DNA from: Lachnospiraceae bacterium | GTDB taxonomy: Bacteria; Bacillota; Clostridia; Lachnospirales; Lachnospiraceae | Assembly: GCA_021770785.1 (NCBI GenBank) | Contig: JAETQH010000035.1 | Coordinates: 1 to 45,193, forward strand | Direction: 5' to 3' | DNA length: 45,193 nucleotides | In this document: one piece after another, positions 32,552 through 41,445 of the stretch | Layout of the letters: each line of letters begins with the position of its first letter | Numbering within the stretch: position 1 is the first letter of the stretch | The notes under the pieces: generated by a model | The model's database searches: none | Told to the model about the DNA's origin: nothing | What the model saw: the letters and a program-made list of their open reading frames with translations, nothing else | Position numbers and translations under genes: made by a program

Positions 32552-32665
32552 ATAAGAAAGACCTTGTTGCATTTATGTATGGTGGGTTTGCCTGCTTTGC
32601 TTGTGCAAAAGAAATTGGTTGATGACAGAGATTGTAGATTTCAGATAGATTTAGGAGGGGCAGCC

Positions 32666-35185
32666 GTGCAGAAAGGTGCAGTGAAAGCAGCCGTTTTAGT
32701 TGTTATATTTATTGTGTCAGTGATGATTTTTGAGATGCTGACAAACCATGTAAACGAAGATTTGACTACAGAAATGCCGGAAGCGACTTTGCCGGTTATT
32801 TCTTTGTTTGCCGGAGAGACGGAAATCAATGAGCTATACGGCTATCAGGCCCAGATGAATGCGGCGTATATGAGAGATACCATTACCCCGGTGGACGAGA
32901 GCCGCAGGCTGTCTGTGCAGATAAAAACCTATCAGACGGCAGTGGACGGCATTTCCTATGAAATCCGCAGCCTTGACGGCAAGCGGCTGATTGCCAATGC
33001 GGAGGTGACGGAATACAGGGAGGATAAGGGCAGGATAAATGTGGAACTTGGGATACAAAACCTGTTGCAGAAGGGAGAAGAATATCTGCTGCTGATTAAA
33101 TTAAACAGCGGGGATAAAAGTATTTCCTACTATACCAGAATTATGGAGCCGGAGGATAACCACATTGCGGAATGCCTGGAATTTGTGCAGGAGGTCAATG
33201 AAAAGACCTTTAATGATGAGACTTCCGGTACCTTATCCACCTACATGGAAAAGACGACGGGGGACAACACCACCCTGCACTTCGTATCGCTGAATTCTTC
33301 CTTAAAGCAGATGGCATGGGCGAATTTTGAGGGTGAGCCTTTTACGGTTCCTGTGCCTTCCATCAAGGAGATGACCGATACCTACAATGTGATTGTGTTG
33401 GAATATGTGGTGGCAGGCATTGGGGAAAACGGTGAGAGCGAATATTTTAATGTGGAGGAATATTACCGTGTGCGCTACACCTCAAACCGGATGTATCTGC
33501 TGAATTTTGAGCGTACCGTCAATGAGATTTTCCGGGGGGAGACAGCCGAGATGTATGAAAATTATATCCAGCTTGGAATCCGTTCGGAGGATGTGGAGTT
33601 TGCGGCAAATGAGGCGGGAACCATCGTGGCGTTTGTACAGGAGGGAGAGCTGTGGTGCTATAACGAGACGGAGAACAATCTGGCAAAGGTATTCAGCTTC
33701 CGCGGGTACGAGGGAATTGACAGCAGGGAAAATAACGGAAATCATGATATTAAGGTAGTCAGCATCGACGAGGCGGGAAGCGTGGATTATATCGTATATG
33801 GCTACATGAACCGGGGAACTCATGAGGGTGAGGTGGGACTTTCCGTTTATCACTATGACGGACTTTCTAATACCAATGAGGAACTGGTATTCCTTCCCTC
33901 AGACAAATCCTTTGAGGTGATGAAATCGGAATTAGGCCAGCTGATGTTCGTCAATGAGGGAGGTGCCCTTTACCTGATGATGGCGGGAAGCGTTTATGAG
34001 ATTGATTTGAACACCTTGCAGGTAAAGGAATTAATGAAAGACCTGCAGGACGGCAATTATGCCATGTCAGATTCTAAGGGGTTGTTTGCATGGACGGAGG
34101 AAGAAAAAAGCAGTACCATACATGTGATGAATTTTGCCACCGGAAAGAGCATGGATATTGCTGAGGGCGGAAACCAGTATGTGAAGCCTCTGGGGTTTAT
34201 GCAGGAGGATTTCGTCTACGGCATTGCAGACCAGGCAGATATTTTTGAGGATGCAGCGGGCAATGTGACAGTTCCCATGTACCAGATTAAGATTGCGGAT
34301 GTTTCGGGAAAAGAGCAGGAAGTATTAAAGACTTACGAAAAGAACGGTTATTTTGTTTCTGGAATTGAAATTGAGGATTATACCATGTACTTAAACCGGA
34401 TTCGGTACAACGGCACCGCCTATGTGGAAACGGAGCGGGATATGATTATGAACCGGGAGGGAGACAGCCTGAGGGTGGTGGACATCCACACCAGCATGTC
34501 AGAGACGAAGCAGAGGCAGGTACAGCTGACTTTGGCAAATCCTGTCAGTGAAAAGCAGCCGAGGCTTTTAACGCCCAAGGAGACTATCTTAGAAGAGGAA
34601 AGAATCATAGCCCTGAATAATCAAAGCGATACGGAACAGTATTATGTTTATGTGAAGGGGGATGTCATTGCCTCCACTGAGTCGGTGACAGAGGCGATAA
34701 AGGCGGCAAATGAGAGCATGGGTGTAGTAATCAGCAGTTCCCAGCAATACATCTGGAAACGTTCCAGAAAAGCAGTACAGGGAGCATTGCCGGACATCGT
34801 GGTGGGCATGGAGGATGCCAATGCAGGCAGTATCGCCCAGTGTATCAATGCCATGCTGGAAAAAGAGGGAATTAACATCGGCGTCAGCGCATTAATCGCA
34901 GGTGGTGAGACACCGAAAAACATCTTAAAAAATACCATGAAGGATGCGGTAATTTTAGACCTTACAGGGTGCAGCATTGAGGAAGTACTTTACTATGTCA
35001 GCTGCGGAAGTCCGGTTTTTGCCATGGCGGGCAGCAGCGACGCAGTGCTGTTGGTGGGGTATGATGCAAACAGCGTTATCATCTTTGATTCGGTGCAGGG
35101 CAGCAATTACAGAAAGAGCCTGACGGAGGCCGAAGAGATGTTTGCGGGAGCGGGGAATGTGTTTTTCACATACCTGAATAAGTAA
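32666..35185 (+). CDS. Large membrane-anchored extracellular protein with degenerate C39-like C-terminal domain
   Basis: An 839-residue protein. The start is GTG 32666, five bases behind AGGAGGGG; the longer frame to 32564 overlaps the terminator region. A single membrane helix (AAVLVVIFIVSVMIFEML) anchors it, with the rest outside. Residues 60 to 650 contain repeated beta-rich segments (WCYNETENNLAKVFSFRGY, AGSVDYIVYGYMNRGTHEG) that suggest a propeller- or sandwich-like sensor region. The last 150 residues follow the C39-like peptidase pattern: AQCINAMLEKEGI, then DLTGCSIEEVLYYVSCGSPV, then SSDAVLLVGYDA and IIFDSVQGS. The catalytic His normally found before VVIVGYD is replaced by Asp, and the Cys lacks the usual CGP context. 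It is therefore probably a binding domain, not a protease. Function unknown. Confidence 0.75.
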   Translation: MQKGAVKAAVLVVIFIVSVMIFEMLTNHVNEDLTTEMPEATLPVISLFAGETEINELYGYQAQMNAAYMRDTITPVDESRRLSVQIKTYQTAVDGISYEIRSLDGKRLIANAEVTEYREDKGRINVELGIQNLLQKGEEYLLLIKLNSGDKSISYYTRIMEPEDNHIAECLEFVQEVNEKTFNDETSGTLSTYMEKTTGDNTTLHFVSLNSSLKQMAWANFEGEPFTVPVPSIKEMTDTYNVIVLEYVVAGIGENGESEYFNVEEYYRVRYTSNRMYLLNFERTVNEIFRGETAEMYENYIQLGIRSEDVEFAANEAGTIVAFVQEGELWCYNETENNLAKVFSFRGYEGIDSRENNGNHDIKVVSIDEAGSVDYIVYGYMNRGTHEGEVGLSVYHYDGLSNTNEELVFLPSDKSFEVMKSELGQLMFVNEGGALYLMMAGSVYEIDLNTLQVKELMKDLQDGNYAMSDSKGLFAWTEEEKSSTIHVMNFATGKSMDIAEGGNQYVKPLGFMQEDFVYGIADQADIFEDAAGNVTVPMYQIKIADVSGKEQEVLKTYEKNGYFVSGIEIEDYTMYLNRIRYNGTAYVETERDMIMNREGDSLRVVDIHTSMSETKQRQVQLTLANPVSEKQPRLLTPKETILEEERIIALNNQSDTEQYYVYVKGDVIASTESVTEAIKAANESMGVVISSSQQYIWKRSRKAVQGALPDIVVGMEDANAGSIAQCINAMLEKEGINIGVSALIAGGETPKNILKNTMKDAVILDLTGCSIEEVLYYVSCGSPVFAMAGSSDAVLLVGYDANSVIIFDSVQGSNYRKSLTEAEEMFAGAGNVFFTYLNK

Positions 35186-38519: not shown

Positions 38520-39689
38520 TTACTGCACATTAGTGGTCAGCAGCATTTTTTCCAACTGTTCATAATCGTAGGAGCGCTGCTTGAAGTTGTTAAACTTATT
38601 TTTAGAGCCTGTTTCCCCAGAGACGGAAGGGTTTTTTGCAGGATGCTTTTCACGGTGCTCTTTTGTTAGTTTTTCCACATCTGCCATGCTATGTACCTGC
38701 AATTTTTTCCAGGTGGATAAGATTGAATCTGTATAGGCAAAGCTCGGCTTCTGGGTGGCCCGAATCGTGTAATCACAGGCGGCAGTGATGATTTCTAAGG
38801 AGAAACCGTAATCCTTCCGCCATTTTTCAATGTAGGCAGTCTCGGAGGAAACGAGATCCCTGCCGGAAATGCCAAAGGCTCTTTTTACGGCAAAATAAGC
38901 CTGTCCATGAAGCTGGGAGATTTGTTTGGCATCCATGACGGAGTGAACGCCGCTTTCCGCCCATTTTAACGCCACAGCTTCTATGTAACGGATAGCCACA
39001 TGCCCGCCGGAAACGCAGTACTCAATCAGATACTCGATTAAGTCCGAAGAGAAGCCGAGCCCGTCGTAAAGATAGAGCAGGGTGTCGGTATCCGTCTGGC
39101 TCAGCGTGCGCCGCAGATAGCGTTCTGCAATAAAAATAAGCTCCTGAATCTGCTCTTTTTCCCGGAATGCTTTGATGTCGTCTGCCGTGTAACACTTCTT
39201 TTTCGGAAGAACGACGGCCGGCTCTGTGAAGCTGTCAGCTTCCGTGAGGGAATCCGCCGTTGCGGCCTCTGGGTGGGAGAAATTCTCTTCTGCCCCGGAA
39301 AGAGGGGGGCTGCCGCCTAGAAGTTCCGGCTGGGAAAGTTCCTCGTTTTTTGCTGTAGAATTGAGCAGATGCACCCCGGTCAGATTCTGCTGGTCGTCAT
39401 ATTCTAAGCGAAGCAGCCGCATCCGCTCCCAGTAACACAGGGCGCGCTTTACGTCTTTTTCGGTATGCTCAAACTTGTCAGCGATGGAGGATAAAGAAAC
39501 CGCGGTATCCGGTGCGTTCATTAAACGCAGCAGATACAGATAGATTTTTACAAATTCCCCATTGGCGTCGGACATATATTCATCTATAAAAATGTTGGAA
39601 ACACTGGTGACAGAAGTGTCGCTGTCATTGTGTATGGTAATCTTTGGCATGGCATATCGACCCACTTTCAACTTAAAGTTCTTATTCAT
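38520..39689 (-). CDS. dnaD: DnaD-domain replication/primosome protein
   Basis: A 389-residue DnaD-like protein that remodels DNA and helps the helicase loader. The N-terminal winged-helix domain reads FIDEYMSDANGEFVKIYLYLL and HTEKDVKRALCYWERM. The C-terminal DnaD/DnaB_2 domain holds YLYDGLGFSSDLIEYLIEYC and the typical YIEKWRKDYGFSLEIITAAC. The low-complexity link between them (about 118-165) is rich in Ser, Glu and Thr. ATG 39689 is used; a GTG just before it and ATG 39650 are alternatives because no clear ribosome site is seen. Its promoter region contains four DnaA boxes. Confidence 0.82.
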   Translation of the reverse strand: MNKNFKLKVGRYAMPKITIHNDSDTSVTSVSNIFIDEYMSDANGEFVKIYLYLLRLMNAPDTAVSLSSIADKFEHTEKDVKRALCYWERMRLLRLEYDDQQNLTGVHLLNSTAKNEELSQPELLGGSPPLSGAEENFSHPEAATADSLTEADSFTEPAVVLPKKKCYTADDIKAFREKEQIQELIFIAERYLRRTLSQTDTDTLLYLYDGLGFSSDLIEYLIEYCVSGGHVAIRYIEAVALKWAESGVHSVMDAKQISQLHGQAYFAVKRAFGISGRDLVSSETAYIEKWRKDYGFSLEIITAACDYTIRATQKPSFAYTDSILSTWKKLQVHSMADVEKLTKEHREKHPAKNPSVSGETGSKNKFNNFKQRSYDYEQLEKMLLTTNVQ

Positions 39690-39736
39690 CACAACAGAAA
39701 GTCCGCAGAGCCTTCCTTCTATTGGATATGTTCCAA

Positions 39737-39742
39737 ATTATA
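39737..39742 (-). promoter_or_regulatory. Extended -10 of the dnaD promoter
   Basis: The minus strand reads TGTGCTATAAT: perfect TATAAT (complement of 39737-39742) with a TGn extension, about 50 bases upstream of dnaD. The -35 is poor, so activation or control by a bound protein is plausible. Confidence 0.5.
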
Positions 39743-39810
39743 GCACAGGAATTTTCAAAAGAGAAGTACATTTTTTGTGCAAACCCAGTAAAATCAAGGG
39801 GTTTGGGAAT

Positions 39811-39993
39811 TGTGGATAATGTGGATAAAAAGTGAATATTTTGTTTCTGTGAGATTATGGAAACTTGGTAAAATGGGGGACAGGTGTGGGGGACGGGCAT
39901 TTTTGTTTTTCGGTGGCAACAGGTTATGTAAACAAAAAAATCCACATTTAAAAGTTGAAGTTTTCCCCAATTAAATGTGGATAATGTGGATAA
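39811..39993 (-). promoter_or_regulatory. Cluster of four perfect DnaA boxes between murC and dnaD
   Basis: TTATCCACA, the consensus DnaA 9-mer, occurs on the minus strand at 39811-39819, 39820-39828, 39976-39984 and 39985-39993. They form two pairs in which the 9-mers abut, all in one orientation. A weaker opposite site AAATCCACA lies at 39948-39956. The gap of 305 bases from dnaD to murC holds nothing else but the dnaD promoter and A/T-rich runs. No dnaA or dnaN is nearby, so this is more likely a DnaA-controlled promoter or titration site than the origin. Confidence 0.8.
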
Positions 39994-39994
39994 C

Positions 39995-41374
39995 TTACTG
40001 CCCCAGGAGATGTTCACCCACGTTTACAATATCTCCGGCACCCATAGTTATCAACAAGTCACCGTTCATACAATTTTTTAATAAAAATTTCTCGATTTCC
40101 TCAAAAGATGGAAAATAGAAACAGTCCGTTCCTTTTTTTGCGAGAACTTCCAACAGGTCTTTGGAGCTGATTCCGTAGGTATTTTTTTCCCGGGCAGCAT
40201 AGATATCGGCGAGAACCACCAGGTCTGCCATGGATAAAACCTCTGCAAAATCATCTAAGAACGCCTTGGTCCTTGAATAGGTGTGGGGCTGGAACACCAG
40301 CACCAGACGCTTATGGGGATAATTTTTGGCAGCAGTTAAGGTGGCACGGATTTCTGTCGGGTGGTGGGCGTAATCGTCAATGACGGTAACGCCGTCCACT
40401 GTGCCCTTGTACTGGAAACGCCGGTTTGCACCGCCAAAAGCGGCAAGTCCGGAAAGAATGGCTTCTTTCGGAAGGTTTAAATCCAGAGAGAGGGCAATGG
40501 CAGCTAAGGCGTTAGAGACATTGTGCATGCCCGGCACATTCAGGGAAACCTGCATCACCGGGGTATCCCGGTACATGGCGGTAAAGCTGGCGCAGGCTTT
40601 CTCGTCAAAGGTGATGTCCGCAGGGTGGTAATCGCAGGTGTCGGTAAGACCAAAGGTGATAACCTTCTGCGTTAAGCCTGCCGTCAGTTCTTCCTGATTT
40701 TCAATTTCTCCGCTGATGAGGATGACGCCGTCTTTTTTTGTGTTTGATAAAAATTGTTGGAATGAATTACGAATATCATGAATATCTTTAAAAAAGTCCA
40801 AGTGTTCCGCTTCCACATTTAGGACAATGCTGTACCTGGGGTAAAAATGAAGGAAGCTGTTGGTGTACTCACAGGCTTCGGAGACAAAGATATTGGATTT
40901 TCCCACTCTTAAGTTGCCGTCTAGAGCTTTCAGGATACCGCCTACCGTGATGGTAGGGTCAGTCTTTGCTTCTAATAGAATCTGGCTAATCATGGAAGTG
41001 GTGGTGGTTTTTCCATGGGTTCCGGCAACGGCGATGGAGTTTTTATAATTGTCCATAATTTGTCCAAGCAGTTCGGCACGGCTCATCATGGGAAACCCTG
41101 CCTCCTTTGCCCGCATAAATTCAGGATTATCCTCCCGGATGGCAGCGGTATATACCACCAGATCGATGCCCTCTGTGATATTTTCGGCGGTCTGTCCGTA
41201 GGAAACGGTGACACCCATATGCTCTAAATGCCTAGTAAGCTCTGACTCCTTTGCATCGGAACCGGAGACGGTAAAATGTTCTTCTAAAAGAATTTCAGCA
41301 AGACCGCTCATGCTGATGCCGCCGATACCTATGAAATGGATATGTATCGGGTTTTCAAAATTAATTTTATACAT
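39995..41374 (-). CDS. murC: UDP-N-acetylmuramate--L-alanine ligase
   Basis: A 459-residue Mur ligase adding L-Ala to UDP-MurNAc in peptidoglycan synthesis. The UDP-binding N-terminus is IHFIGIGGISMSGLAEIL. The ATP loop is VAGTHGKTTTTSM, the central domain has EACEYTNSFLHF and NVEAEHLDFF, and the C-terminal domain has DDYAHHPTEIRATL and FQPHTYSRTKAF. AGGCAGGTAGTG precedes the ATG (complement of 41374); an extension to 41407 is not needed. It has its own promoter (41465-41492) and a hairpin-rich leader. The stop codon lies one base past a DnaA box. Confidence 0.95.
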   Translation of the reverse strand: MYKINFENPIHIHFIGIGGISMSGLAEILLEEHFTVSGSDAKESELTRHLEHMGVTVSYGQTAENITEGIDLVVYTAAIREDNPEFMRAKEAGFPMMSRAELLGQIMDNYKNSIAVAGTHGKTTTTSMISQILLEAKTDPTITVGGILKALDGNLRVGKSNIFVSEACEYTNSFLHFYPRYSIVLNVEAEHLDFFKDIHDIRNSFQQFLSNTKKDGVILISGEIENQEELTAGLTQKVITFGLTDTCDYHPADITFDEKACASFTAMYRDTPVMQVSLNVPGMHNVSNALAAIALSLDLNLPKEAILSGLAAFGGANRRFQYKGTVDGVTVIDDYAHHPTEIRATLTAAKNYPHKRLVLVFQPHTYSRTKAFLDDFAEVLSMADLVVLADIYAAREKNTYGISSKDLLEVLAKKGTDCFYFPSFEEIEKFLLKNCMNGDLLITMGAGDIVNVGEHLLGQ

Positions 41375-41403
41375 AATCACTACCTGCCTGTTAAAATAGT
41401 CTG

Positions 41404-41445
41404 GCAAAGCCCGGTGTATCCGTACACGGTTTGGCTTTGCAAAGC
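41404..41445 (-). promoter_or_regulatory. murC leader with alternative hairpins
   Basis: GCAAAGCC (41404-41411) can pair with GGCTTTGC (41433-41440), closing a helix with an inner GTGTA/TACAC. The same GCTTTGC can instead pair with the adjacent GCAAAGC as the perfect 12-base palindrome GCTTTGCAAAGC (41434-41445). The two folds exclude each other. No T-tract follows toward murC. Confidence 0.45.

Follow-up and report, generated by a model that had tools for sequence, protein, structure and literature searches.

The DnaA regulon and the DnaA-box clusters of Bacillus subtilis were reportedly described by Goranov (2005), Ishikawa (2007) and Okumura (2012). In this organism, DnaA sites occur outside oriC and some of them act on transcription (PMC13220808). 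In Escherichia coli, tandem near-perfect pairs of TTATCCACA lie before a few genes, replication genes among them, and the mechanism by which DnaA activates transcription is described in the same source as poorly understood (PMC11317965). Two DnaA-box clusters, bridged by DnaA with the intervening DNA looped, are known from B. subtilis and H. pylori, whose oriC is bipartite (PMC8235120), and for lac loops in E. coli in vivo 11 bp per turn has been reported (PMC8501960). Here, we describe a locus that has tandem perfect DnaA boxes in two arrays, upstream of dnaD and a helicase-loader gene; our search of the open-access literature found no report of DnaA boxes at dnaD in Lachnospiraceae.

The window, by which we mean the whole stretch of 45,193 nt that was analysed, contains exactly four copies of TTATCCACA by exact-match count, all on the minus strand, which is the coding strand of dnaD (39811–39819, 39820–39828, 39976–39984 and 39985–39993). 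There is 0 bp between the boxes of each pair, and the pairs are separated by 165 start to start, with a gap of 147. The first-pass annotation had described four boxes arranged as two head-to-tail, zero-spaced pairs on one strand, between the murC stop (39995) and dnaD, and the exact positions agree with it on both counts. It had also called their number far above chance, which is borne out by an expectation of 0.54 copies for the window and by the failure of any of 100 dinucleotide shuffles to reach four copies; its figure of one such 9-mer per ~130 kb per strand must, however, be corrected to 262 kb per strand, 131 kb being the value for both strands. The elements of the locus are:

39995–41407, minus strand: murC, the upstream neighbour of dnaD; passes TIGR01082
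39976–39993, minus strand: array 1, a zero-spaced pair of perfect DnaA boxes, 1 nt past the murC stop (exact match)
39940–39982, minus strand: terminator-like hairpin of murC; 5' arm 39982–39971, 3' arm 39951–39940, T-run 39939–39933
39811–39828, minus strand: array 2, a zero-spaced pair of perfect DnaA boxes whose end is 68 nt upstream of the −10 (exact match)
39760–39765, minus strand: predicted −35, TTCTCT, conserved and off consensus (read from the sequence and relatives)
39737–39742, minus strand: predicted dnaD −10, TATAAT, with a TG extension at 39745–39744 (read from the sequence)
38520–39692, minus strand: dnaD, 390 aa from GTG, with a conserved start near ATG 39655/39650; passes TIGR01446
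37519–38505, minus strand: gene for a DnaI/DnaC-like helicase-loader ATPase; passes NF005304

The names murC and dnaD stand as given in the first-pass annotation, but dnaI does not: the product matches NF005304 (ATP-binding protein) with 380.5 bits, and scores 61.4 against the cut-off of 228 for the DnaI equivalog, so that DnaI/DnaC-like loader is the safe name. Elsewhere in the window, an 873-aa open frame (32564–35185, plus strand) has no Pfam match. Perfect boxes number 116 in the genome as a whole (246 contigs, 5.0 Mb), compared with 26 for the reversed control, and the exact 18-mer pair occurs at just three places, two before dnaD and one in contig C42; the arrays are, therefore, not copies of a scattered repeat. 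The third pair (L031, 1501–1518) lies between convergent cytidylate-kinase-like and PTA genes, with no adjoining gene start. In a further contig (C128; L034, 1440–1520), TTATTCACATTATCCACA and one more perfect box are found between NlpC/P60-SH3 and WecG/TagA genes. A search of Rfam at gathering scores across 39600–40100 gave no matches, and a known RNA element was rejected on this basis.

The two arrays are well conserved among relatives, as the comparison proposed with the first-pass annotation has now established. In 99 de-duplicated family loci found by the DnaD protein alone, a perfect box is present in 96, an abutting pair, each box being allowed one mismatch, in 94, an exact pair in 74, and two arrays in 69, the second array being missing, by the criterion used, in 30. 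Moreover, the strand bias is extreme: 289 perfect boxes at these loci lie on the dnaD strand and 4 on the opposite strand. When one genome per genus was taken (200 in the family, our own included), the exact pair was found, at any place, in 120, and the reversed control in none. Additionally, a genus sample gave 54 pairs in 42 of 60 genomes, of which 48 are upstream of dnaD on its strand (places compared by eye), and among 15 family loci from a search of the class (own genome included) there are 12 with a perfect box and 13 with a pair allowing one mismatch per box. The family is Lachnospiraceae by inference, most of the relatives being labelled Lachnospiraceae, or Roseburia and kin, and some bearing no more than the label Eubacterium, Clostridia or bacterium. 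Loci from the family and genus samples are the best-scoring ones and, therefore, closer relatives are over-represented. Loci found by protein or by model are counted apart, whereas the counts for phasing, register, promoter, murC stop and hairpin use a mixed set of 120 dnaD loci, reduced from 174 by similarity, of which 21 were fetched for having the pair; in one locus set, 25 of 139 were dropped for want of an anchor and three for short flanks. The statistics treat de-duplicated loci as independent, relatedness being removed only in part.

Beyond the family, no coding-strand box or pair was found within 1150 nt upstream of the protein match at any of 35 dnaD loci (the 15 best non-family matches and 20 chosen across families), a stretch that in many of them includes several hundred coding bases and in three is cut short by the flank (L376, 416 nt; L382, 964 nt; L399, 435 nt); one of the 35 has a box on the opposite strand. 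Of 391 genomes sampled across the class, 58 contain the pair, six of them from the window's own family, and none of 24 pair loci examined from other families sits at dnaD. The gene order follows the same boundary: murC directly precedes dnaD in all 120 de-duplicated family loci, and no murC match was found in the 35 loci sampled outside, so that, in these samples, gene order and element appear together. As to where pairs are found in other families of Clostridia, those of L348–L351 and L333 adjoin a replicative-helicase gene on the opposite strand (DnaB_C in L348, the rest by reading), with an FAD-enzyme-like gene following where the flank is present, and those of L323–L328, from further families, are upstream of an amino-acid-type ABC substrate-binding gene on the same strand (SBP_bac_3 in L323, the rest by reading).

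The first-pass annotation credited dnaD with a good extended −10 and a weak −35, and both are not only readable in the sequence but conserved in relatives. The extended −10 is present in 112 of the 120 de-duplicated loci, and the −35 place reads TT[C/T][T/C]C[T/A], the consensus letters being uncommon at the third base (G, 2%) and at the fourth (A, 5%). Counts of TATAAT are 61 past array 2 and nine between the arrays, for similar total lengths of sequence; both arrays are, therefore, upstream of the likely promoter. The centre of array 2 lies roughly 90 or 100 nt before the predicted start, from where class-I activators can work. Taken with a −35 that is kept off consensus, this position favours activation.

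The arrays also show helical phasing. Within them, the box-to-box register across the 120 loci is 9 bp (0 bp between boxes) in 218 counts, 12 bp (3 bp) in 37 and 11 bp (2 bp) in three. Two arrays are found in 85 of these loci, and the distances between them cluster near 88, 99, 109, 120, 142, 154, 166, 176 and 188, with a few values in between: the best fit is a period of 11.2 bp (R = 0.66, the null reaching at most 0.37; n = 85, p ≤ 0.0002), and the period persists when the distinct distance values alone are used (p ≤ 0.0006), whereas the control distance, from array 2 to the gene start, has no period (p = 0.99). Permutation of partners never reached the observed values, either between arrays (0 of 5000; n = 85) or between array 2 or array 1 and the −10 (0 of 5000; n = 80), or with the protein-found loci alone (0 of 2000; n = 69). 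The pair nearest the −10 lies at about 49, 59, 69, 79, 88 or 101 nt from it, in steps of ~10 bp (R = 0.84; n = 86, a figure that omits 21 loci whose nearest pair is at least 125 nt from the −10), the commonest distances being 69 nt (29 loci) and 79 nt (14 loci), and that of the window 68. When no distance cut is applied, array 2 is phased to the −10 with R = 0.82 in the 80 two-array loci (0 of 5000 permutations). Quantisation by the helical repeat, such as is expected of a DnaA-bridged loop, is thus present at the dnaD arrays.

Array 1 has a further peculiarity, in that it overlaps the end of the murC unit. In 99 of 115 loci with a pair, it begins 0–1 nt past the murC stop, and a terminator-like hairpin is present in 103 of the 115, in 79 of which the 5' arm is at offset 11, i.e. 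in the second box of the array. The window conforms to this pattern: the 5' arm (39982–39971) falls in box 2 of array 1, and the hairpin folds with −17.5 kcal/mol (z = −3.7). By reading of the listed hairpins, the letters of the inner stem vary among loci while the pairing is kept. The region of array 1 thus has the stable hairpin, the T-run and the gene-end position of an intrinsic terminator; no such hairpin was found at array 2 (0 of 85) or at the pairs before hpf (0 of 27). Array 1 is, consequently, a DnaA-box array and a terminator arm at once, possibly with a roadblock role on top, and, because it forms the terminator arm, its conservation may in part be due to something other than DnaA. 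This overlap, the helical phasing and the recurrence of pairs at hpf go beyond what the first-pass annotation had noticed.

At least 150 places with a pair were found in the family genomes; among the 150 listed, 64 are at dnaD and 28 upstream of hpf, all of them on the strand of the gene. The 28 hpf pairs are spread over 23 genomes, and three more of the fetched loci are hpf. Among the 150, 58 were unmatched to genes among the matches listed; the 45 loci that cover them comprise, by tblastn, 12 dnaD, one murC end only, three hpf, four dnaA and 25 that are none of these. Starting from the family model alone, 26 de-duplicated hpf loci were found, 13 with a perfect box and seven with an exact pair, and their boxes number 29 on the hpf strand versus six opposite. 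The full hpf set was reduced from 45 to 41 by similarity, and 15 of the 41 were fetched for having the pair. At hpf, the proximal pair is not in phase with the predicted −10 (p = 0.89, n = 20), and the geometry seen at dnaD is, therefore, not valid at every target; phasing between hpf arrays (p = 0.003) is only suggestive, because it rests on 10 loci, falls to p = 0.096 for distinct values and has a control, from array 2 to the gene start, at p = 0.056. In the window's own genome, hpf (contig C19) has no perfect box upstream among the matches listed and was rejected as a DnaA target there. The hpf gene concerns ribosome hibernation, and its pairs, on the hpf strand, are often beside secA (L194–L200, L203–L207, L209, L211, L212 and L287; hpf identified by Pfam on L195 and in the others by similarity or reading); where there are two, they are mostly 75, 76, 86 or 97 bp apart, and 114 in L287. 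Other pairs accompany a small DUF1858 gene (L210, L283, L296, L297, L298, L307, L311, L312, L315 and L316; Pfam on L283), with mecA in eight of these ten loci (Pfam on L297); in the four inspected, the pair precedes the DUF1858 gene and shares its strand. In L294, L314 and L320, pairs are directly upstream, on the same strand, of a methyltransferase gene (PF02390 in L294), which we take to be trmB. The hpf, DUF1858/mecA and methyltransferase pairs support the existence of a putative DnaA regulon, but are themselves confined to certain lineages.

Taken together, these results give strong support to control of dnaD and the loader gene by DnaA, as predicted from sequence: the element is conserved in the family and absent from the loci sampled outside it, its boxes lie almost all on one strand, and its arrays are helically phased to the predicted promoter. 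The first-pass annotation had offered such control or, alternatively, titration of DnaA; the former is supported by these observations, and the latter is not. In the titration reading, the site would draw off DnaA like datA or the B. subtilis clusters, its place before dnaD being incidental. Clusters outside oriC do affect initiation in B. subtilis (PMC13220808), and dnaD, which in nine relatives with assemblies of one or two contigs lies some 230–750 kb from dnaA, would be copied early; against this, the arrays account for just four of the genome's 116 perfect boxes, lie on the coding strand with a bias of 289 to 4, and are in phase with the −10, which makes titration improbable. Moreover, datA, DARS and clusters of this kind are characterised by a position and orientation independent of a promoter, and the dnaD arrays are not so placed. 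That the boxes are part or a remnant of a replication origin is suggested by the clustering of perfect boxes and by the occurrence of abutting pairs beside dnaA too, in four fetched loci (L202, L285, L303 and L313), yet the checks that had been recommended on GC skew and dnaA position exclude an origin here: the skew is positive in 22 of 22 bins of the window, with no switch, and dnaA is, in keeping with the claim that the boxes are far from it, on another contig (C186), where it has boxes of its own on the side facing rpmH (a gene identified by sequence reading). The distance of dnaA from dnaD in the nine relatives, in six of which the contig begins at dnaA, tells against it as well, and we regard this explanation as extremely improbable. 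Around dnaA, at least 20 perfect boxes are found in L218, L285, L303 and L313 and two in L219 and L222 (full flanks); the number of origin boxes thus varies widely among relatives.

Two further explanations accept that DnaA acts at this place. The arrays could serve to repress dnaD and the loader gene, a loop or filament on both of them limiting the promoter as at that of dnaA itself; such repression by DnaA is known for dnaA-dnaN in both model bacteria (PMC13220808), and phased arrays are typical of loops. Repression appears unlikely, however: the predicted promoter is downstream of both arrays, boxes on the coding strand (one mismatch or none) seldom end <47 nt before the −10 (three counts in 112 loci), and the conserved weak −35, together with the phasing to the −10, fits an activator better. 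Alternatively, array 1 could be a DnaA roadblock that aids the murC terminator against read-through into dnaD, with array 2 separate or supporting. The position of array 1 at the murC stop and the shared hairpin arm speak for this, as does the description of E. coli DnaA as a roadblock promoting termination (PMC11317965), but it leaves array 2 with its lack of hairpins, the phasing and the hpf pairs unexplained; a roadblock, which would be compatible with activation, is somewhat unlikely.

Our preferred reading is that of a two-array element upstream of the predicted promoter, at which bound DnaA probably bridges the arrays and activates the loader genes; activation as the sign of the effect is favoured on geometry only. 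DnaA would occupy both arrays cooperatively, the arrays would share one helix face and touch across a loop of 90–190 bp, and array 2 would contact RNA polymerase for class-I-like activation. Synthesis of DnaD driven in this way would close a negative feedback loop, because DnaD of B. subtilis inhibits cooperative DnaA binding (PMC13220808). More tentatively, as a possibility that we would not call probable, DnaA may be a looping activator whose phased arrays fire the loader operon (and, in part of the family, hpf through its pairs) at high DnaA-ATP, the resulting DnaD dissolving the DnaA assembly in a self-limiting circuit in which the distal array doubles as the murC terminator. Several points stand against activation by bridging: only 120 of the 200 genera have the exact pair in their genome, at whatever place; a second array is missing from 30 of the 99 protein-found loci; the phasing to the −10 is not seen at hpf; array 1 doubles as a terminator arm; and DnaA, if it behaves as in E. 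coli, would prefer boxes 2–3 bp apart to abutting ones (PMC11317965).

Bridging and activation would mean a direct link from the initiator to the supply of helicase loader in a main gut bacterial family, and the dnaD promoter would offer a simple system in which to study activation of transcription by DnaA. Helical phasing is a signature that can be tested at the bench with a few insertions, and through the overlap of array 1 with the murC terminator the element is linked to a gene of the cell wall.

The comparison with described systems brings out what is particular to this locus. Double boxes in E. coli are 2–3 bp apart (PMC11317965), a spacing not seen in the window, where it is 0 bp; across the loci, a register of 9 dominates, with a secondary register of 12. 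Neither the helicase-loader operon nor hpf is among the E. coli targets named in the available part of PMC11317965. The clusters of B. subtilis affect the timing of initiation, and a phased two-array promoter geometry is not described in the part of PMC13220808 available. In the bipartite oriC, the loop spans dnaA at the origin (PMC8235120), whereas here it would cover ~90–190 bp before a promoter, at a place with no skew switch. Finally, the arrays share with the lac-type looping regulators a distance preference of ~11 bp per turn (PMC8501960), but differ from them in that the protein is predicted to be DnaA and the promoter has both arrays on its upstream side.
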